Below the pieces are notes generated by a model that saw only the letters and a program-made list of their open reading frames with translations, ran no database searches and was not told the origin of the DNA. A stretch of DNA of 64,000 bases, from NCBI GenBank assembly GCA_023511795.1, contig JAIMAU010000001.1:388384-452383 (forward strand). Direction: 5' to 3'. Source of the stretch: Armatimonadota bacterium. Its GTDB lineage: Bacteria > Armatimonadota > UBA5829 > DTJY01. Shown here piece by piece: positions 47,010 through 64,000 of the stretch; the stretch's first letter is position 1; the number at the start of each line of letters is the position of its first letter. Both the position numbers and the translations under genes were made by a program.

Positions 47010-47096
47010 TGGTGCCGAAGGTCGGGGTCGAACCGACATGAGGTTGCCCTCACCGGTTTTTGAGACCGGCGCGTCTGCCAATTCCGCCACTTCGGC
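47010..47096 (-). tRNA. tRNA-Leu (anticodon CAA)
   Basis: Reads GCCGAAG acceptor, D-arm GGCGGAATTGGCAGAC, anticodon stem CCGGT with loop CTCAAAA (anticodon CAA), long variable arm TGAGGGCAACCTCA, T-arm GTCGGTTCGACCCCGAC, acceptor CTTCGGC, then A and encoded CCA. 87 nt including CCA. Long variable arm confirms class II Leu. Confidence 0.96.
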
Positions 47097-52916: not shown

Positions 52917-52991
52917 AAACACGGCAAAATCATATGGTGTCCTTCGTCAAATATCAGAGGTCGTATGAGCGAAGGTCAGGATAAAAAGGTA

Positions 52992-53034
52992 GGACCGGTC
53001 TGCAAAGAGCAAACAATGCGGACCGGCCCTTTTT
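52992..53034 (+). terminator. Intrinsic terminator after rpsA
   Basis: 12-bp GC-rich stem (52992-53003 with 53018-53029, including G-T pairs), loop 53004-53017, then CTTTTTG. It lies inside the longer open frame of coaE, arguing that coaE starts downstream. Confidence 0.8.
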
Positions 53035-53045
53035 GTGGCCGGAAA

Positions 53046-53657
53046 GTGCTTATTGTGGGACTCACCGGCGGTGCCGCTAGTGGAAAGTCCACTGTTGCAA
53101 AAATGCTCGCTGACCTTGGTGCACGCGTAATAAGTGCAGACGATATGGTGCACGGCCTTCTGGATAACGATCCTGAAGTTCAGAAGGAAATAATTCAGGC
53201 GTTTGGTAAAGACATTCTGAACGAGCAGGGGCGGATAGACCGTAGAAAACTCGGCAAAATAGTTTTTAAAGACGCAGAGAAAAGAGCCCGTCTTGAGAAA
53301 ATCATACATCCACGCGTATTAGCCCAAATAGAATCCGAGATAAATAATTTTCGTAAGCAATGCGAAGGAGTACTAGTGGTTGAAATTCCATTACTAATAG
53401 AAACGTCATCGGTTCGAATGGTTGATAAGGTTTTGGTAATTAGTGCGGAACAAGAGACGCAGATAGAGCGTCTACAAAAGAGATACGGAATCTCTCGCCG
53501 TGAAGCACTTCAACGCATCACGGCGCAGTTACCAATGGCTGAAAAAATCAAGCATGCTGATTGGGTAATTAGCACTGAGGATACTTTCGAAAAAACGAAA
53601 GAGCAGGTAAATTCTGTGTGGCATGCAATGCAAGAATTGCTTGCACAACAAAAATAG
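53046..53657 (+). CDS. coaE: Dephospho-CoA kinase
   Basis: 203 aa. Last step of coenzyme A synthesis. Seen: GLTGGAASGKSTVAKML with the P-loop, ADDMVHGLL, QGRIDRRKLGKIVF, EIPLLIE, and RRYGISRREALQRI-type lid (here QKRYGISRREAL). The open frame begins at 52965, but a terminator lies in that extension, so GTG 53046 (or GTG 53055) is preferred; both give the normal family length. Its end overlaps the promoter of the next operon. Confidence 0.92.
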   Translation: MLIVGLTGGAASGKSTVAKMLADLGARVISADDMVHGLLDNDPEVQKEIIQAFGKDILNEQGRIDRRKLGKIVFKDAEKRARLEKIIHPRVLAQIESEINNFRKQCEGVLVVEIPLLIETSSVRMVDKVLVISAEQETQIERLQKRYGISRREALQRITAQLPMAEKIKHADWVISTEDTFEKTKEQVNSVWHAMQELLAQQK

Positions 53658-53669
53658 CTGTGCTATAAT
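53641..53669 (+). promoter_or_regulatory. Sigma70-type promoter for the secreted-protein cluster
   Basis: TTGCAC (53641-53646), 17-nt spacer, TATAAT (53664-53669), overlapping the coaE stop. Leader of about 320 nt. Confidence 0.7.
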
Positions 53670-53996
53670 CGGGGCGTTGTTTGCACAATTAGAAATACTG
53701 GTATGAGCCTCTACTGCGAATGGAATCAGGCGCAGAGCATTGATAGGGGTAGTTTATTGGTTTAAATCTGCTGGGGGCAGTCGTGAGATATCCTCAATCC
53801 AAATTAGGACTAAATGAAAAAGCGTGAACTCATGAAAGTTATTTATCTACTTTCCACTTTGGATTATAGCGCTCCTCGCGTGATTTCATTCTGCAGCATA
53901 TACCAGTTTCGTAAAGGCAGTAATTTAAAAGAATAGTTTGGCGTTAATTCGACAGCACGCCAGCAAGACAAGTATTTCCTAGGAGGAAACACTGTT
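53670..53996 (+). other. Long leader of the secreted-protein cluster
   Basis: About 320 nt between the promoter and the first gene. It has no convincing gene; a 40-codon frame at 53814-53936 lacks supporting similarity. No known riboswitch core recognised. Confidence 0.5.
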
Positions 53997-55895
53997 GTGA
54001 AAGCGTTTAGGGTAAGAGACACGCGTTTACCAGTAAGTTTGCTGTGCATTGTTGCCATCCTAACATCCATTGGCTGCACGGCGTTCATCCCCGGAGCAGT
54101 GTTTGGCCAAGGGAGGATAATCGAGGTTGCCGTAGTTGATTTCCTGAATACCAGCAAGATGCCAGGCAAAATGTTTGGCAAAATGGCAACCGATGCGGTT
54201 GTCGTCGAGCTATTCCGTTCAGGGAAGTTCAATGTTACCTCTGGTGACACTCTCCAAGCCAAGATGCAGGAGCTTGGATACTCAGTTCCTCTCACTCCTG
54301 GTCTTTCGCAGAGACTAGGTCAAGAAGTTGGCGCAAACTGCATTATTAGTGGGGAGCTAGATCATATCAAAGTTGACAAGGATAAAAATCAAGCTGAAGT
54401 TCGCCTTAAAGTCGCTATGCGTGATGTTGCGTCTGGGGAACTAGTTAACGGCGCAATTGCAGTTGGCAGGAGTTATCCGCACGTAGGATATACCGCTGAT
54501 GAAGACAAGCTCCTGGTTGAAGCAATAAGCGACGCAGCTCGAATCGCTGTAGAGACAATGGTTCAATACATACTCCCCGAAGCCACCGTCCTCAGCTCAG
54601 TTGGAACAACCCAGGTCTTGCTAAATAAGGGATCTCAAGAAGGCATCGAAGTTGGTATGGAAATGATTGTCCTGCGACGCGGCGAAGGCGGGCAAGACGA
54701 GGTTGTAGGCCGAGTTAAAGTCTCAAAGGTCACCGATACAGACTCAATCGCTACAGTCATACGCGCACCAAAAGGCGTGAAGCCTGAAGACCGCGTGAGA
54801 GCTATTTTCGAAATGCCCTCTGCAAAGGATGTAACATCTAGCCAACTACCAGTACGACCTAGTGAGCAGAGAAAACAAATCTCTCGTGGGAGCCGATTGG
54901 CTTGGGCAATCGTAGGTCTTCTAGCGATAGGTGCACTTTTTAAAGGCGGCGGTGATCAAGCTGAGACAGTACCAGGAGTCACAGCCCAGGCTGGGGCACT
55001 GCCCGATATAAATCCACACGAAAGCGACGTAGGCATATTGATAACATGGAACGCACCTAGAAATATTGGCTTGGTAAACATTAGAGAGTTCCATGTCTGG
55101 CGCGATAATTGGGGAAATCCAACCTCAGGAGGCCAGGGTACTATGGCACCTGTACTGGCGCCGGGCGTCAATACAATTGGACCAGTTGCTGGGTTCGACT
55201 ATGGAGTAGTTGATGAACCCTCACCTCGAACCGTGGATGCTTGGCATTATCCATCTCTTGACCATACAACATTGGAAGAAGCAGATATGAGCATGAGCGG
55301 CATTTCTATTGGTAGGCCGCATAGATATTATGTCTCTTGTGTTTATCAGCGTGTCAATCCGACAACAGGAAACATAACCTATTGGGAGACACCTCCTGTT
55401 GCGGCAGGTATTGCAACTGCTTTGAATAGGCCTATATGCCAGCCTATAACCATGGGCATGGGAGACCTTAACGATATTACTTTTGAGTGGGAAAGCTCGG
55501 GAGGCGCCGATACATATTGTATTGAAGTATCAAAGAGTCCGAATTTTGAGCGAGATGTTACATGGGTACATCAATTTGTTCAGCGTACTTCGATGGATGG
55601 AGTACTCATGTCAAAGACGTTCACGAATGTTTTAAGAGACCGCAATGGCAATTTAGTTCCCGAGCTGCAGGGTATTCAAAACGGCGATACTCTATACTGG
55701 CGCGTTGGTGCAAGAAACAGTGCTGACAGGCCGGGCCCAATCCCCGCTGGACCGTCTCCGCAGAAAGACGGCCCAAAGAATACCAGATATATTTATAGTT
55801 TAATGGAGCAGTTTACTGTTGAGCTCCCACCAAGCCCGCCTGGCGTTGAAGACGGTGGAAGTGATGGTGGAGGAACGCCGCCAACGCCCTTCTAA
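53997..55895 (+). CDS. CsgG-like secreted protein with C-terminal fibronectin-like region
   Basis: 632 aa. Signal peptide (to about 37) with Cys in LTSIGCTAF, a weak lipobox, or signal peptidase I cleavage near VFGQG. Then a CsgG-type domain (about 40-190: VAVVDFLNTSKMPGK, VVVELFRSGKFNVTSGDTLQ, ANCIISGELDHI) and a FlgT-C-like beta domain (200-275: LLNKGSQEGIEVGMEMIVL). A hydrophobic helix (about 300-318) and beta-rich repeats follow, ending in GGTPPTPF. Start GTG, GGAGG 10 nt upstream. CsgG itself forms the curli pore; this is a fused relative, not shown to be a pore. Leads the secreted cluster. Confidence 0.72.
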   Translation: MKAFRVRDTRLPVSLLCIVAILTSIGCTAFIPGAVFGQGRIIEVAVVDFLNTSKMPGKMFGKMATDAVVVELFRSGKFNVTSGDTLQAKMQELGYSVPLTPGLSQRLGQEVGANCIISGELDHIKVDKDKNQAEVRLKVAMRDVASGELVNGAIAVGRSYPHVGYTADEDKLLVEAISDAARIAVETMVQYILPEATVLSSVGTTQVLLNKGSQEGIEVGMEMIVLRRGEGGQDEVVGRVKVSKVTDTDSIATVIRAPKGVKPEDRVRAIFEMPSAKDVTSSQLPVRPSEQRKQISRGSRLAWAIVGLLAIGALFKGGGDQAETVPGVTAQAGALPDINPHESDVGILITWNAPRNIGLVNIREFHVWRDNWGNPTSGGQGTMAPVLAPGVNTIGPVAGFDYGVVDEPSPRTVDAWHYPSLDHTTLEEADMSMSGISIGRPHRYYVSCVYQRVNPTTGNITYWETPPVAAGIATALNRPICQPITMGMGDLNDITFEWESSGGADTYCIEVSKSPNFERDVTWVHQFVQRTSMDGVLMSKTFTNVLRDRNGNLVPELQGIQNGDTLYWRVGARNSADRPGPIPAGPSPQKDGPKNTRYIYSLMEQFTVELPPSPPGVEDGGSDGGGTPPTPF

Positions 55896-55911
55896 CTGAC
55901 GTAAAGAAAGG

Positions 55912-58900
55912 ATGCGGAGCAACATGTTTGGTAGAGCAATGGGACGCCGTAAATCCCTTTGGGTGCCATATTTGATAGCAATAGTGTGGGTACTGGCTGG
56001 AGTCGTGCCCAGTTTCGCCGAACCTTTTGGAACCTGGCTAGTGAATTCCCAGCGCCCAAAGTACGTGCCAAACGAAATCTTGGTTTCGCTACATGAAGGA
56101 AAAACCGACGCTGATCTTGCGGGTTTTAATGCTGAATACAAAACACGCTTAGCTCGCAGAGTCAATTTCGGCAATATCGTTGTGCTCGACCTTTCAGGTA
56201 GCGGAAATACACCTGACGGGATAATTAACAACCGTGAAGCGATTCTCAAAAAATACCCGGCTATCAAATCCGTCCAATACAACTACTACCGCTACCCTTT
56301 GGATGTTCCTAATGACCAATTCTACCCAGCGCAGATTAACCCAAGAAATCCGAATTTTATATCTGGCCAATGGCCTTTGCAGCCGCACCCAACTAGGCCT
56401 GAAATCCTTCACATTCGTGCGCCAGAGGCGTGGGATATCGAAAAAGGTAGCAATCGCGTTGTGGTAGGTGTAATAGATACTGGTGTTAGAGATAGGCTTT
56501 CTTTTGACGATCAAGGACAAATAATTCGGCGGCCGCATCCTGATTTGGAGGACCGCATCCTCAAAGGAGAAGGCTATGATTTTGGAGATTTTGATTCGGA
56601 CCCCTCTCCATCTGAAAACGACCAAGTTCCATCTGGTACAGTTACACACGGCACACACGTAGCGGGGATAATTGCAGCACAGGCGAACAATACAATTGGT
56701 ATTGCAGGCCTATGCTGGGATGGAGTGTGGATACTTCCTGTAAAAGTAATGCCTGATGGCGACCCCGGGCTTCCTTTGGATGCAATTATCAACGCAATCT
56801 ATTATTGTGCAACATGGGAAGGCAAAGACCCAAACACCGGTGAGCCGCTCAAGTGCAACGTCATAAACATGAGCTTTGGCAGTCAAAGCCCGACGGAAGA
56901 GGAAGAAAGAGTATTGGAGTATGCAGTAAGTAAGGGTGTCGTTCCAGTTGCGGCTGCAGGTAATTCATGGGAAAATGGCGCTCCACCACCAGGATATCCT
57001 GCCTCTTATGATTGTGTAATTTGCGTAGGTGCCACGGGATATCTTGATGACGTGACTAGCTTTTCCCAAAGAGGACATGTGGTAGACATTGCAGCGCCAG
57101 GCTATGAAGTTCTGAGCACAGTTTGGTATAGGGCTTTAGCAACAGGTCCTGCACAACCTCCTGGCGGCGGTGGTACAACTCCACCCACACCTGGTTCGGT
57201 AGTTCAGCAGGAACCGCCTTCTCAGACATGGCCTGACCCGACAGGTAACGCATTTAGTTACATGTCGGGGACCTCAATGGCGTGTCCTCATGTGGCTGCT
57301 GCTGCTGCACTGCTTATTTCTCGAGGCGTGCCCTCTTATGATGTACAGGAAATCCTCTGCAAAAGCGCTACCCCAATGGGATTTGGCCGTCCGAATGATA
57401 ACTATGGCTGGGGTTTGCTGAATGTCTATGAGGCTTTAAAGAAAGCTACCATTGACGTGGAGATAACTTCGCCTCAAAACGGCAACGAAGTCGGCACCTT
57501 GCGTCCAAAATGCCGCATAGACTTTCGACATGCCAAACAAGATACAATTCGTGTTTGGGTTGACGATAAACTTGTAATAGGTCCGGCAGGTGCAAGTCCC
57601 GACATCATTCCGAATTGGGAAACGGGCTATCACGTTCTGGACGAGAATGCAGGCACAACATATCTAATATTTGAGGTACCGCTAGCCAGCGACCGCACAC
57701 TTCACTCAATCAAGGCTTTTGCCGAAACCGATAATCCACCGGACGTTCCTCAGGCCATACCGATGTCTGATGAAGATACTCATTATTTCAGGGTTCAGAC
57801 GCGCAAATTCGCGGCTGGCTGGAACTTGATTTCCGTGCCATATCAGATTGACCAATCAATTGCTCCTGAGGCGTTGTTTGGCGATGATCAAGCGCTTTGG
57901 CGATATTCCTATGCCGATGGGAGCACAGGAAGATATTATGCGTACTGCAAAGCTGGCGATAGATATGACAATGAGGCAACGCTAACGCCGGAAAGCGTCT
58001 TAAGGAATCTTTTGGTGTGCCCAATCTCATCGCTATCAAGCCCAACAGCACTGGCAACAGCGCCCGCAGGTCTTGGTTACTGGCTTTATGTCGAAGATCC
58101 CAGCGGATATACAATACCTGAAAGCTTTGGAGCTCCTGTTCCTGAAGAACCCTATACTATAGGGTTGTATAGAGGATGGAACATGGTCGGATGTCCATTT
58201 ACGTACCCGGTGCAATGGGCAAACGTGACTGTCGAGTGCGGTGGTAATTATCTGCGGGCGACCGAAGCTGTTGAAGCAGGGTGGATATCTCCGATTATCT
58301 ATACCTACGATTCATTCTACAAACAATACAGATGGCAGCGAATCGAAAAAGCCGTTTTGAGACCTTGGGAAGGTCAATGGATTAGGGTTGTTACTTCGGG
58401 GCCCAGGCCGCCTGATGTTTCAAATGGTGAGTTTTCTGTGAACATTGCGTCGCCTAGTGACATAGCTGATGATTGGGTAGCCTACGACGTTGGAGCTGGA
58501 AGCAGTTCTTACTCCCTTGCTAATGTTCCAAATCATAGTGGTTACCCATCACAGGCGCAAAGGATAAGCATTAGAAGTGTTGCAGAAGGCGTTCCATACT
58601 CTGCTGGAATTTACCAGCGTGTACAGTGCCAAGAAGGCACCAGATACGTGTTTTCAGTTTGGACCTACCGCAATAGCTCTGGCGATACAACCGAATGCAC
58701 AAAGGTCGGGATAGATCCCTACGGCGGTGTAGACCCAAGTGCGGCGGTATGGTCTGCTGAACAATACTCCGTGGGGAATTGGACTCGGCAGATTGTTTAT
58801 TGTACTGCACAGAGCTCTCATCTGACCGTGTTCATACAAGCGACTACTAATAATGCTACCGTACCGAATACCGTCTATGTGGATTTGGCTAGGTTGTCTG

Positions 58901-58956
58901 GTGGGCGCGATGTAACTTTAATAATTCCGCCGACGCCTTGTGGTTCTATGTACTAG
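55912..58956 (+). CDS. Secreted subtilisin-like serine protease (S8)
   Basis: 1014 aa. Signal peptide (about 12-36), propeptide (YVPNEILVSLHEG), then the S8 domain with Asp189 (VVGVIDTGV), His246 (HGTHVAG), oxyanion Asn351 (AAAGNS) and Ser455 (SGTSMACPH). A Gly/Pro-rich insertion with PPTP lies at about 413-445, just before the Ser strand. Then a beta domain, two copies of a W-x-(L/M)-(I/V)-x-x-P module (about 633 and 752), PWEGQWIRV (819), a carbohydrate-binding-like C-terminus and an IPPTP end. ATG 55912, or ATG 55924 with GGAG closer. Likely processes or anchors surface proteins. Confidence 0.9.
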   Translation: MRSNMFGRAMGRRKSLWVPYLIAIVWVLAGVVPSFAEPFGTWLVNSQRPKYVPNEILVSLHEGKTDADLAGFNAEYKTRLARRVNFGNIVVLDLSGSGNTPDGIINNREAILKKYPAIKSVQYNYYRYPLDVPNDQFYPAQINPRNPNFISGQWPLQPHPTRPEILHIRAPEAWDIEKGSNRVVVGVIDTGVRDRLSFDDQGQIIRRPHPDLEDRILKGEGYDFGDFDSDPSPSENDQVPSGTVTHGTHVAGIIAAQANNTIGIAGLCWDGVWILPVKVMPDGDPGLPLDAIINAIYYCATWEGKDPNTGEPLKCNVINMSFGSQSPTEEEERVLEYAVSKGVVPVAAAGNSWENGAPPPGYPASYDCVICVGATGYLDDVTSFSQRGHVVDIAAPGYEVLSTVWYRALATGPAQPPGGGGTTPPTPGSVVQQEPPSQTWPDPTGNAFSYMSGTSMACPHVAAAAALLISRGVPSYDVQEILCKSATPMGFGRPNDNYGWGLLNVYEALKKATIDVEITSPQNGNEVGTLRPKCRIDFRHAKQDTIRVWVDDKLVIGPAGASPDIIPNWETGYHVLDENAGTTYLIFEVPLASDRTLHSIKAFAETDNPPDVPQAIPMSDEDTHYFRVQTRKFAAGWNLISVPYQIDQSIAPEALFGDDQALWRYSYADGSTGRYYAYCKAGDRYDNEATLTPESVLRNLLVCPISSLSSPTALATAPAGLGYWLYVEDPSGYTIPESFGAPVPEEPYTIGLYRGWNMVGCPFTYPVQWANVTVECGGNYLRATEAVEAGWISPIIYTYDSFYKQYRWQRIEKAVLRPWEGQWIRVVTSGPRPPDVSNGEFSVNIASPSDIADDWVAYDVGAGSSSYSLANVPNHSGYPSQAQRISIRSVAEGVPYSAGIYQRVQCQEGTRYVFSVWTYRNSSGDTTECTKVGIDPYGGVDPSAAVWSAEQYSVGNWTRQIVYCTAQSSHLTVFIQATTNNATVPNTVYVDLARLSGGRDVTLIIPPTPCGSMY

Positions 58957-58987
58957 AATGGATGCTGAGCGGATAAGGAGGATTGAG

Positions 58988-61063
58988 TTGAAAACCTTTA
59001 ACGAATGGTCAGCACTCCTGTTAGCTATAATATTTGTATTACTTACATGCTGGATTACTGTGCCTGCAAGTGCCGGATTTGTTTCCGTTCAAAATACGCA
59101 CATAGGCCTATCAGTTGGAAGAGATGATGAATGGGACCTTCAAATAGCGCATTCATTAATTCCAAATCAGCCTATAGCAGGGCGTTTCTGCATTTGGGCT
59201 GTCGGTGGCGACCCAACGGTTGGAGAAGATGACTATTCCGATATAATATGGCAGCCATTTGGGCCCGGTGCTGGTGCTCCCGGTGATAAATGGGGCGCTG
59301 TCCAAATAATGGTTGATGGTTATGATGACGAGGGCAATCGCATGTGGGCGCCTTTTGAAGTTGGAGGTACATCCGGCATTTGGGGAGATGAAAACGACGG
59401 CATATGGGACGTCATGCCGCATATTCGAACGGATAAACATAACATGATTTATGGGTCATGGTATCCGGTGTCGACCGAAGACCCGCCTGGTTTAATTCCC
59501 ATAAAATGTGAGCAAACAGCCAGATTGATGCATAATACCGTGCGTTTCGAGTGGAAGCTTACAAATGAAGATATAGTGGACCATTATGTAGGAATGCGCA
59601 TATATTGTGACTTTACACTTGGCGATGGTGATTACGGAACACGTGACCGTTTAATGGTTGTAAGTATTCCAGGTTATCCAATAATAGAAGAGAAAACCCT
59701 TTTGTCCGTCGGTCAAATCCCGCCAGTAATCGAAATGTTTGATTCGGTGACGAATCCCTTAAGATCAATTAGGGTTACTTTCCAAGGAAGCGGTGCTACT
59801 ATGCCTGATAAGGTCGGCATTGATGATTGGCCCGATGTAGCCGGTTCTGGTTGGACTTACGGTTACGCGCTGGGCCAGGGTGGCGACCCATGGTTAGCAT
59901 GGCTTTATGAGCCAATAAAGCATACATATATAAATGATGTGGCGTATGGTGCTTTTTGGAAGCCGCGCCGTTTAATGCCCGGACAGTCGAGAACAATAGT
60001 ACACTATATTGGCCTTGCCTGCTCAAGCGCTCAGATGTCAGAACCGAGCGAAAGAAATATTCAGTACTGTGCAGCCGTTCATTCGCCTAGGTGCCTGAAA
60101 TATATAGGGGCAGGCTCATCCGGCATGGTCTATCCAGATCCGTTTACTATAACTGCTTATCTTGAAAATCTAGAGCCACACATGGATTTCACGAATGCCA
60201 GCTTTACTTTAATACTTCCTCCAGGTCTTGAACTAGATCCATCAGAGAACAACCACTATACCAAGACATTAGTTCGCGTTCCTGCAAAAAAGGAGGCATC
60301 TGTTTCTTGGAAAGTGCGTGTTACTGGGTCGCCAAGAGGCATCATGAACTTCTCAGTTGCATTTAGTGCATATCCCGGTGTTGGTACAACAGTTACACGA
60401 ACAATCAATATTCCTGCTGCGGAAAAGCAACCGCTCTCGTGGCGGTGGCAAATGATATCGGTGCCGTTTGAGCTGATGAATAGCGAGCCAAAGACTGCGC
60501 TCGGGTTAGTCGGCGAAGAATGGACACCGGAAAACCGCGATGGGAGCTGGCGGCTTCTTGGATACGACCCAGTGACTATGCAATGGGAGGAGCCGGTGAA
60601 TAACCTAGTGCCAGGGAAGGGCTACTACCTCTGGCTTGCACGACCTCAGACTGTTTCTCTGACGCCAGGCAATTTTGTGCCACGCGAGTGGGCGGGTACT
60701 AAGGGTTTTCATATCCCTCTAAAGCAAGGCTGGAATATGGTTGGTAATCCATACATATACGCAATGACGTTTGGAGAAATACGGTTCTACCACGCAGATT
60801 GCGGCGTACTAGACTATGATGAAGCAGTAGCCAAAGGCCTAATTTCGAGAACAATTTTCTCATGGAACGCAACATTCCAAAGATGGGATATGTATAGCAA
60901 GCGGGATGCTCAACTAAAGCCTTGGCAAGGCTATTGGATACGCGCATTAAGGTCTGGCGTAGATATGATAGTGACGCCTGAGGCACAAATCGGCGCCGGC
61001 ATTGGCGGCGAGATACCACCGGAAGATACGGATGGAGGCCCAACGCCGCCGCCAACTCCATAG
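58988..61063 (+). CDS. Secreted beta-rich protein with duplicated C-terminal module
   Basis: 691 aa. Start TTG 58988, 6 nt after AAGGAGG; the open frame runs back to 58940 and overlaps the protease gene. A signal peptide (KTFNEWSALLLAIIF onward to SAG) is followed by a large beta-rich region (about 30-390), a CARDB/DUF11-like domain (about 395-475), then the same duplicated module as the protease: RWQMISVPFEL (484), GKGYYLWLARP, GWNMVGNPYIYA (580) and PWQGYWIRA (645). The end is Gly/Pro-rich (GGPTPPPTP). Exported; no enzymatic motif. Probably a surface or matrix protein acting with the protease. Confidence 0.72.
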   Translation: MKTFNEWSALLLAIIFVLLTCWITVPASAGFVSVQNTHIGLSVGRDDEWDLQIAHSLIPNQPIAGRFCIWAVGGDPTVGEDDYSDIIWQPFGPGAGAPGDKWGAVQIMVDGYDDEGNRMWAPFEVGGTSGIWGDENDGIWDVMPHIRTDKHNMIYGSWYPVSTEDPPGLIPIKCEQTARLMHNTVRFEWKLTNEDIVDHYVGMRIYCDFTLGDGDYGTRDRLMVVSIPGYPIIEEKTLLSVGQIPPVIEMFDSVTNPLRSIRVTFQGSGATMPDKVGIDDWPDVAGSGWTYGYALGQGGDPWLAWLYEPIKHTYINDVAYGAFWKPRRLMPGQSRTIVHYIGLACSSAQMSEPSERNIQYCAAVHSPRCLKYIGAGSSGMVYPDPFTITAYLENLEPHMDFTNASFTLILPPGLELDPSENNHYTKTLVRVPAKKEASVSWKVRVTGSPRGIMNFSVAFSAYPGVGTTVTRTINIPAAEKQPLSWRWQMISVPFELMNSEPKTALGLVGEEWTPENRDGSWRLLGYDPVTMQWEEPVNNLVPGKGYYLWLARPQTVSLTPGNFVPREWAGTKGFHIPLKQGWNMVGNPYIYAMTFGEIRFYHADCGVLDYDEAVAKGLISRTIFSWNATFQRWDMYSKRDAQLKPWQGYWIRALRSGVDMIVTPEAQIGAGIGGEIPPEDTDGGPTPPPTP

Positions 61064-61107
61064 AGGAGCAATTTCTTGGTAATTGTAGCGCTTAGGAGGT
61101 TTTTATT

Positions 61108-64000
61108 ATGAACTATAAAGGGACAATGGCGCTAAAATGTGCAATCATTGGACTATTATTTGTAATTGCAATTGCTTCCCAGTGCCATGCCCAAAGCATT
61201 GGAAGTGTAACAATAGACCCAGTCGAAGCAACTTCAAATAGTGTCTATAAGGTGCAATTCGTCTGGACTTGTTCTGAAGCTCCATATTTCCCTGATGCGG
61301 GTACACTCAGGCTTGAATATCTTTCTGACCCATATGGTGGGTCGGCGGTTACTTGTCCGGTCCCTGAGGAGTGTGGCAGAGGACATCCAATAACGGGGCG
61401 GCTTTATACCATTTGGGTTAGCGCAGGTCTTAACCTTGAAAACGAGTCTCCTCATCCCAAAATGGAGCATTTGTATTTATTTGAGGCTTTAAAAGCCAAT
61501 CCGGATGGGTCTCCACGGTCAGTAACTTTCCAAATCAAGGCCACATTTACACAACCGCCTGAGAATGAAGGTGACGAGCCAACAGTTACTGAGGTTACGG
61601 CTGACGTAGGGCCGGTAACTGTCCATGACTCCCATCCTTGTAGTGCAAATCCGAGGTATGGGGGCGTGAAATGGGACCGCGATTGGCTGACAGGCTATGT
61701 GTTATATCCTGATCCTCTTACTCTTGATCCACTTTTTACAACGGGTTACGAGGGTCAGTCTCCAGAAGATCCAGAAAATCCAGATGATGGAACTACTTCA
61801 AGCACTTACACCTTCCGCATAAAATACAACAACGACGACAGTCGTGCGCCTGAGCCTTGGCACAGGTCTTATGGGAATAGTACAGCTTTCCTTACAACGC
61901 GACCAGGCATTGACCCGTCGGGCGTGGTGTTATATGTTTACGATCCCTATGCCAATAGCGGGAGTGGCGCATACACAAACCTGCCAATGCAGCCCAACGC
62001 AGAACTTGGCGATGGGGTATATGAGTATATAATCCGGCCAGACCGGTGGAACAGCTATAGGGCTTTAAGAATAGGCAATTATAGGTACTTCTTTGGATGT
62101 TCTGATGATTATATTCGCGATATGAATGGCGAAATTCCAACTTGGGCAGAAGAGCAGCCGTTTTCATATGGACCTTTATCTGGCAGCTGTCTTTCCCACA
62201 ATAAGCCATCGCCTGAGTTCGGCAATGTATATAACATGGGTATTTATGTCTGTCGCCCAACTTTCGTGCCAGGGGTAACCACTGTTTATCCGTGGAGCGC
62301 AAATGAACATCCCAAAGTAACAGTTGGGTTGTGGAGCCCGAAAGAGTGTGGATATCATACTCATATGTATACGATTGACCCGTTATATCAAATGCACAAC
62401 CCAAATGGACAAGCTACAACGGGTGCTACAACCAATGACCGGCTTAGTTTCCAGATAGTATATGGGCAGATTGACGGAATTCCCCCACAAGAGATTAGCG
62501 TTTGGATTTATAAAGGCAATAATACCAATGGTCCTCTTGAGCGGCGAATTACGCTTGAGCCCACGGAAGCAGTAACTTCATCCAAGATAAAGGCTGGCTT
62601 GCTTTATCGAACTCCTTCACCTATTTCGCTTGAAGCTGGCCCGCACGTCTGCTACTTCACAGCTTCGGATGGAAAAAAGAGAGTAAAGTGGCCTGTTAGA
62701 GGTGGAGATGATTGGATTTGGGGACCGTATATCAACCATAGGCCTGAGCTTTTAGATGCAAAGGTAGAGCCAAAAATCGGCACCGCCGGAGATAATTTCC
62801 GTTGGACTGTAACCTATAGGGATGCCGACAACCAAAGGCCATACCAGGCGCATCTCATTATTCAATTGCGCGATGGCGGAACCCTAGAAAACGGCGGCGC
62901 TGTAAGGGTCGTCATGGAGAAACTTGACAAAAGTGACAATACTTACGATGACGGCGTAGTTTACAAGTTTGATTCTGCAAATTTAGAACACGTCTTGCAG
63001 CCTGGCCAGCGGAAATTCTATTTTGAATTTGTCGATGACTGGGGAATAGTAACAGACCCCAATGAAAGAATATATGGTGAAAAGGTTTGGTATCCACCTC
63101 GGTCCGGAGATGTGCCAAACTGGATAGATGGACCGTTTATAAAACCGAACACTAAGCCGATTCTCTCATTAGGCAAAGTTGAATCAACGGACGGAACAGC
63201 GAATTCAGCAACATTGTGGAGATACTCAGTCCGCTATACAGATGCGGACAACCAGCCACCAACCTATGTAATAGTCTATATTGGAACAGTGCACGCGGAT
63301 GGAACGATTACCTGGGATGGTGGTCACGCAATGTTGCCTACCAACCCATCGGATGTAGTATATACCGATGGGAAAGACTACAGCTTCCTCACGCGGTTGG
63401 GCGGCGATCCCACGGCAGTCAGTTATTACTATTGTATGGTAGCTGCAGATGGTATAGATCCGGCTGTTTATGACCCATCTACCGGCAGCACGAGCGCTCA
63501 TACAATTTGGAATCCGATGGAGACCCTCACATCATCAACGCCAACGGATACTTTCTTCACAACTCATAAACCGCTAGTAGCAGGAGTGCCAACAGGTGGG
63601 GGAGTTAGAGACCAATATTACGATAGCGAGAACTGGCCGTTATATGAATATCCATTGGTTTATGACGCTTCGAATAAACCCTTAAGCTATGATATTGAAA
63701 ATTCGGACTTCGAGAATGGCGTAATCAAGCTATACACAAGTGCTACGACGATTAAAATGCAATATTGGTTTGGTGTTCCTGGCCCAACCTCGGTTGGGCT
63801 GAACACCCCTCCAAGATTGACTGCAGGGCAAGTTTCCCCTAACCCTGGCACAACCCAAACTACATTTCGGTTCTCGGTGGTGTATTCGGACCAAGATGGA
63901 CCGCAAGGGCAGATGCCTTCGTTTGTTAGGGTAAAGGTTGATGATGTGCCATATGACCTTTCTCCTGTGTTCGTTGGGACGCCGAACTACAAGATTGGCG
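61108..64000 (+). CDS. Large secreted Ig-like repeat protein, partial (runs off window)
   Basis: Open from ATG 61108 (AGGAGG 8 nt upstream) to the end with no stop, at least 964 residues. Signal peptide: KGTMALKCAIIGLLFVIAIA, cleavage near CHAQS. Contains at least three similar beta units late on: NHRPELLDAKVEPKIGTAGD with VTYRDADNQ; NTKPILSLGKVEST with VRYTDADNQ; NTPPRLTAGQVSPNPGT with VVYSDQDG. These are Ig/cadherin-like repeats with Asp residues (possible Ca sites), typical of adhesins or surface layers. Fourth and last gene of the cluster in view. C-terminus unknown. Confidence 0.78.
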   Translation, partial: MNYKGTMALKCAIIGLLFVIAIASQCHAQSIGSVTIDPVEATSNSVYKVQFVWTCSEAPYFPDAGTLRLEYLSDPYGGSAVTCPVPEECGRGHPITGRLYTIWVSAGLNLENESPHPKMEHLYLFEALKANPDGSPRSVTFQIKATFTQPPENEGDEPTVTEVTADVGPVTVHDSHPCSANPRYGGVKWDRDWLTGYVLYPDPLTLDPLFTTGYEGQSPEDPENPDDGTTSSTYTFRIKYNNDDSRAPEPWHRSYGNSTAFLTTRPGIDPSGVVLYVYDPYANSGSGAYTNLPMQPNAELGDGVYEYIIRPDRWNSYRALRIGNYRYFFGCSDDYIRDMNGEIPTWAEEQPFSYGPLSGSCLSHNKPSPEFGNVYNMGIYVCRPTFVPGVTTVYPWSANEHPKVTVGLWSPKECGYHTHMYTIDPLYQMHNPNGQATTGATTNDRLSFQIVYGQIDGIPPQEISVWIYKGNNTNGPLERRITLEPTEAVTSSKIKAGLLYRTPSPISLEAGPHVCYFTASDGKKRVKWPVRGGDDWIWGPYINHRPELLDAKVEPKIGTAGDNFRWTVTYRDADNQRPYQAHLIIQLRDGGTLENGGAVRVVMEKLDKSDNTYDDGVVYKFDSANLEHVLQPGQRKFYFEFVDDWGIVTDPNERIYGEKVWYPPRSGDVPNWIDGPFIKPNTKPILSLGKVESTDGTANSATLWRYSVRYTDADNQPPTYVIVYIGTVHADGTITWDGGHAMLPTNPSDVVYTDGKDYSFLTRLGGDPTAVSYYYCMVAADGIDPAVYDPSTGSTSAHTIWNPMETLTSSTPTDTFFTTHKPLVAGVPTGGGVRDQYYDSENWPLYEYPLVYDASNKPLSYDIENSDFENGVIKLYTSATTIKMQYWFGVPGPTSVGLNTPPRLTAGQVSPNPGTTQTTFRFSVVYSDQDGPQGQMPSFVRVKVDDVPYDLSPVFVGTPNYKIG

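Follow-up and report, generated by a model that had tools for sequence, protein, structure and literature searches.

We analysed a 64,000-nucleotide stretch (the window; bases 388384–452383 of contig C1) of the 3.09-Mb draft genome of a member of the Armatimonadota, and a string of genes for exported proteins (G1 to G7) that begins in the window and continues past its end. We propose, with about even confidence, that these genes belong to an Armatimonadota-wide cluster that places large proteins on the outer surface of the cell, as a dedicated display or anchoring system. The core of the system would be G1, a periplasmic or envelope protein, and G7, a second LptD-like outer-membrane barrel, joined in most lineages by G5. 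The clients would be exported proteins with a C-terminal tail in common (a module with or without the CTD0 and FlgD-type Ig domains): the subtilase G2, the sugar-binding-like protein G3, and the giant protein G4.

The Armatimonadota are a deep and mostly uncultured diderm phylum in the Bacillati, and their envelope is almost undescribed. A cluster that almost all genomes of the phylum retain, and that centres on an LptD paralogue, offers a concrete way into how such bacteria display proteins. The cluster would likewise allow a test of whether bacteria can recruit LptD-type barrels for displaying proteins on the surface, beyond lipid export. Published work describes the phylum as diderm and as having genes for lipopolysaccharide (LPS) and BamA (PMC5629042). 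We did not find a description of the cluster in the open-access literature that we searched, including searches for Armatimonadota with LptD, the type IX secretion system (T9SS), or the cell envelope.

The stable pair G1 and G7

As an earlier note on this DNA had claimed, the window contains four genes for exported proteins, tightly packed and all on the + strand. The open reading frames are real, and each of the four proteins has a hydrophobic, signal-peptide-like segment at its N-terminus. The note had also suggested looking at the sequence beyond position 64000. There, G4 continues and is followed by three more exported genes, including the decisive one (G7), so that the string on this strand reads coaE–G1–G2–G3–G4–G5–G6–G7–uvrB. 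The intergenic gaps from G1 through uvrB are at most 136 bases. (For genes beyond the window, we give positions in locus L002, which covers the whole stretch; adding 52617 converts an L002 position to a window position.) Relative to a congener (G001), the ratio of nonsynonymous to synonymous substitution rates (dN/dS) is 0.06–0.12 for all seven genes (for G4, in the first 507 codons only), which implies that all seven are under purifying selection.

Of 151 Armatimonadota genomes, 140 have G1 and 147 have G7; among the 116 good genomes, the count is 113 for each gene. The two genes share a contig in 84 genomes, and in 81 of these G7 follows G1 on the same strand, within 30 kb downstream. The genes are thus co-conserved across the phylum, which excludes the earlier note's worry that they might not be. 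Among public records with G1, all of the named ones are Armatimonadota, and a few are titled only "bacterium". A search of contigs with a subset of G1 gave 19 loci; a contig search with the single G3 protein gave no match.

The client genes between G1 and G7 vary, from none to several, while G1 and G7 persist: G1–G7 is the stable pair of the cluster. In some families (L069, L078, L080, L082), a G3-like protein is the only client. In L055 and L068, there is no client between G1 and G7, and a giant protein with the tail or the module is encoded just upstream of G1. In other families, the giant upstream of G1 has the tail too, together with CarboxypepD_reg domains and, in many cases, PD40 beta-propellers.

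G1 (window 53997–55895, + strand; 632 amino acids) has a signal peptide, an LpoB/CsgG/TolB-N-type domain (residues ~62–190), a barrel like those of FlgT-C, TsaP and MreC (~200–262), a hydrophobic transmembrane helix after the barrel (~301–320), two FN3-like domains, and a GGGTPPTPF tail. The earlier note called it CsgG-like, which holds loosely, at the level of the superfamily. The window protein is above the cut-off for Pfam's LpoB model (28.3 vs. 22.3 bits) and below that of NCBIfam's LpoB equivalog (24.4 vs. 110.55 bits); it matches LpoB, DUF3280 and MreC only, and not Pfam's CsgG (PF03783). Among solved structures, the G1 profile matched LpoB (E = 1e-5), the FlgT-C-like region of TsaP (E = 6.5e-4), and FN3 domains. 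In relatives of G1, the LpoB stretch also matches CsgG, TolB_N and LptE; what follows it matches the MreC barrel and FlgT_C. The CsgG model matched 8 of 18 G1 proteins at E ≤ 0.1 (best 2e-8), and LptE weakly matched 5 of 18 (best 2.5e-4). G1 has neither a consensus lipobox nor a conserved cysteine. The signals of its relatives end in an AxA|Q-type (signal peptidase I) site with an invariant Q38, as judged by eye rather than by a signal-peptide program.

G5 (L002 14534–15331; 265 amino acids) and G6 (L002 15357–16118; 253 amino acids) share the LpoB/CsgG-type domain of G1 (hhalign probability 99.2%, E = 6.5e-20), followed by a membrane helix and a glycine-rich end. The G5 profile had matches in 87 of 101 genomes, which overstates the presence of true G5, as the profile also matches G1; some families seem to be without it. 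In three loci, G5 is fused to 4–6 Big_1/Invasin_D3 Ig domains (L035 3–4532, L073 12127–16059, and L083 7353–11807), the family of Ig domain that G7 also has at its N-terminus. We considered whether these were fusions of G5 to a G7-like barrel, as proof of a complex, and rejected this: the matches to the G7 profile are to the Ig domains only.

G7 (L002 16254–18227; 657 amino acids) is more plausibly the outer-membrane component than G1 is. All nine members that we compared have an Invasin_D3/Big_1 Ig domain at the N-terminus, followed by an LptD-like jellyroll and barrel. The G7 profile matches LptD (7omm; E = 3.4e-10) from the jellyroll into the first part of the barrel, and the C-terminal residue is phenylalanine in eight of nine aligned sequences. 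Pfam's LptD family models (including LptD_N) did not match any of the nine proteins. We built an AlphaFold model from three sequences, which is reasonably confident only in the Ig/jellyroll part and the last hairpins; its top nine Foldseek hits are LptD, and then come pilus ushers and the Ig domains of intimin. The invasin/intimin-type Ig domain is supported by both profile and fold. LptF/G is present twice in the genome, and one copy adjoins a 778-amino-acid LptD-type protein on contig 15, so G7 is an additional LptD-like protein. LptE was undetected in 13 relatives, while control genomes were positive. We also noticed a third LptD-type protein (OstA/LptD-like, 487 amino acids; L067 4192–5655), which is encoded beside a HerA-like ATPase.

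The shared module and the proteins that carry it

The earlier note described a duplicated module in the protease and its neighbour. The tandem duplication is real: the module is a domain of about 170 residues with two homologous halves (hhalign probability 97%, E = 2e-11). It is found in three proteins of the cluster rather than two, namely G2, G3 and G4 (the copy in G4 is past the end of the window). The note had suggested a structural check on the module. A profile search of the PDB found no significant match; only the T9SS adhesins RemA and RemZ appeared, at E ~0.04, which is a weak lead.

In relatives, the module is followed by CTD0 and then by the FlgD-type Ig domain. Among the fetched loci, which are biased towards the cluster, 65 proteins have CTD0 and FlgD-Ig after the module, and 40 have fewer than 60 amino acids after it. 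Of the 67 proteins with an FlgD-Ig tail, 66 contain the module, and the tail ends 0–17 residues from the C-terminus.

The genome encodes 15 copies of the module, 3 in the cluster and 12 elsewhere. All 12 of the proteins outside the cluster have the module at their extreme C-terminus, along with a signal-like N-terminus. Across 31 Armatimonadota genomes, there are 0–21 copies per genome, with 1–21 copies in 29 of them. The earlier note had raised the possibility that the module is ubiquitous filler. It is indeed widespread, but all copies outside the cluster in this genome are strictly C-terminal, and on this ground we reject random filler: the module is a recurring C-terminal domain of exported proteins, and is neither filler nor specific to the cluster. 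Another region of the same genome (L084; G000:C1:88001–107000) encodes five exported proteins of 666–1314 amino acids, each ending in the module. Two small exported proteins, of 218 and 226 amino acids (L087 2874–3527 and L088 2449–3126), are scarcely more than a signal peptide and a module. And near module-bearing proteins, two short exported proteins have PEP-CTERM-like ends: one with a PEP motif, a hydrophobic stretch and a basic end (L065 9453–10678), and one with a hydrophobic stretch and an RRRR end (L086 1013–1765).

G2 (window 55912–58956, + strand; 1014 amino acids) is a secreted S8 subtilase (PF00082, E = 1e-49) with intact D/H/S catalytic motifs. Its tandem-duplicated module is at residues ~631–827 (window 57802–58401, + strand) and is followed by a C-terminal extension of ~185 amino acids. 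We considered whether G2 might belong to a dentilisin or mycosin complex, but its matches to the NCBIfam models for mycosin and for dentilisin PrtP are far below the cut-offs and reflect similarity in the subtilase domain only. In some homologues, the catalytic domain is diverged or interrupted (L038 14646–18155, L074 9064–12582, and L083 3672–7208); these may be inactive or may contain large insertions.

G3 (window 58940–61063, + strand; 707 amino acids) more likely starts at the ATG at 58958, directly after the stop codon of G2. It has an N-terminal supersandwich of the galactose-mutarotase/GH94 type (best Foldseek hit ~1e-6; TM-score of 0.55 on target 3dcd), an Ig-like domain, a tandem-duplicated C-terminal module (W-x-M-I-S-x-P ... 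PWxGYW; window 60425–60997, + strand), and a PTPPPTP tail. In one relative, G3 is split into two overlapping reading frames (L079 6871–9544), the second of which has CTD0 and FlgD-Ig; this could be a frameshift or a real split.

G4 is an exported giant of 1998 amino acids and is an array of Ig-like domains. The gene (L002 8491–14487) occupies 61108–64000 of the window, on the + strand, and reaches 3.1 kb beyond its end. Both the module (residues 1661–1837) and CTD0 (residues 1868–1978) are encoded in the part beyond the window. The G4 homologue of one relative (L026 5365–13923) encloses a second, intact subtilase domain.

The proline- and threonine-rich PPTP stretches that the earlier note saw in three proteins are present as described: at the C-terminal end of G1, in an insertion in the catalytic domain and at the C-terminal end of G2, and at the C-terminal end of G3.

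Upstream of G1 is coaE (dephospho-CoA kinase; window 52965–53657, + strand), which is identified by the sequence motif GLTGGAASGKST and by its conserved position, as it is often upstream of the cluster. uvrB begins at L002 18258. The earlier note placed one promoter before the four genes. There is an extended −10-type site (TGCACA-16-TATAAT; window 53642–53669, + strand), but a promoter is unproven, as such sites are no more common in the window than expected from shuffled sequences (31 found vs. 29 expected). Overall, the promoter and terminator scan did not find more sites than chance would give. The sole tRNA in the window is a tRNA-Leu (caa) on the minus strand (47010–47096).

How the cluster might work

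From the domains and the gene content, we infer a scheme for localisation, docking and the direction of transport. Sec would carry the clients across the inner membrane, and their C-terminal tail would dock to an assembly of G1, G5 and G7 at the outer membrane. There, the clients would be anchored, and G7 might deliver an LPS-like glycolipid to serve as the anchor. The substrates of the protease would be the clients, which G2 might trim or mature, and the ligand of G3 might be a sugar. In other families, the giant upstream of G1 would be a client as well. A more specific version seems doubtful to us: that this is a protein secretion and surface-attachment system that has not been described before, specific to Armatimonadota within the limits of our search. 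In this version, G7, as an LptD paralogue turned to a new use, would act with its LpoB/CsgG-type partners G1 and G5 to translocate or anchor proteins with the module, CTD0 and FlgD-Ig tail, and the subtilase would take the role that PorU has in T9SS.

Several observations weigh against a display system. Within the window, G2 and G3 carry the module only and not the full three-part tail. The many module proteins that are encoded elsewhere would also fit a tail that serves for adhesion in a generic way. G5 is undetected in some families. The model of G7 is poor overall (pLDDT, the predicted local distance difference test, is 47). coaE and uvrB often flank the cluster, so some of the synteny may reflect an order of genes that was simply inherited.

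The main rival is that G7, with G5 or G1, is mainly a second export complex of the Lpt type, for LPS or another glycolipid that forms a special envelope glycan. The large proteins would then be a surface layer that merely binds this glycan, and the tail would be a domain for adhesion to glycan or to the surface, not a sorting signal. This is possible, although we think it unlikely. It would fit the LptD-like jellyroll and barrel of G7, the weak LptE matches among G1 proteins while LptE itself is undetected in the relatives, and the supersandwich of G3, which is typical of sugar-binding proteins. However, the genome already has an LptD linked to LptF/G, and the cluster has no glycosyltransferases or Lpt inner-membrane genes. 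Lipid export alone also explains the protease and the tail-bearing giants poorly. Less probable still is that the gene order is conserved without a common function, as abundant envelope genes in an ancestral coaE–uvrB region. Many copies do have both flanking genes, and modules are frequent in the rest of the genome, but G1 and G7 stay close even with other clients or none between them, and also where coaE or uvrB is not adjacent, and clients within one cluster have the same multi-domain tail.

The earlier note had combined the CsgG-like protein, the protease and the adhesin-like repeats into a dedicated system for secretion, processing and display. Of this, envelope display survives as the best reading, given the co-conserved genes, the intact secreted protease and the shared tail. 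That G1 is a CsgG-type pore which exports its neighbours like curli or related fibres is very improbable, even though G1 shares the LpoB/CsgG/TolB-N superfamily and some G1 proteins match the CsgG model. The pore is unsupported because the window protein matches LpoB and not CsgG and lacks a consensus lipobox, and the relatives have the AxA|Q-type site. Furthermore, the barrel, membrane helix and FN3 domains of G1 are all outside the CsgG model, and CsgE, CsgF and CsgA were not matched in the cluster.

Comparison with known systems

In G1 and in G5, one domain is of the CsgG/LpoB/TolB-N/FlgT superfamily, and the barrel of G1 is like those of TsaP, FlgT-C and MreC. Unlike CsgG and LpoB, G1 combines this domain with a transmembrane helix and FN3 domains, lacks the consensus lipobox, and is not accompanied in the cluster by genes for curli or for PBP1b partners. 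Both the profile and the fold of G7 place its jellyroll and barrel close to those of LptD in the LptDE translocon, and the terminal phenylalanine is a further likeness. Unlike LptD, it has an extra invasin-type Ig domain at the N-terminus, it is not beside LptF/G, and it is not the only LptD in its genome. Like the subtilases (MEROPS S8), G2 has a complete catalytic domain with the D/H/S motifs, but it also bears the cluster's C-terminal module.

The T9SS attachment complex joins clients to anionic LPS: a protease and a beta-propeller protein, each with an Ig-type domain at the C-terminus, work together with barrels of the outer membrane (PMC8545088, PMC11285876). We did not adopt homology to T9SS. 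The FlgD-Ig tails of relatives match PorU and PorZ weakly; the relatives' tails match FlgD_ig strongly and TIGR04183 weakly, in 2 of 19; and the T9SS C-terminal domain was not matched in the window's G3. SprA_N had no match in 61 genomes, and the control genomes were likewise silent. The protease of the cluster is of family S8 instead of C25 like PorU (we searched the cluster, and not the rest of the genome, for C25), and its barrel is LptD-like instead of PorV-like. The cluster does resemble the attachment complex (PorU-PorZ-PorV-PorQ; PMC8545088) in its logic, by analogy rather than homology: it combines a protease that has a C-terminal Ig-type domain with an outer-membrane barrel, other families encode a beta-propeller protein whose C-terminal domain is of this kind as well (the giant upstream of G1), and tail-bearing clients are encoded elsewhere in the genome.

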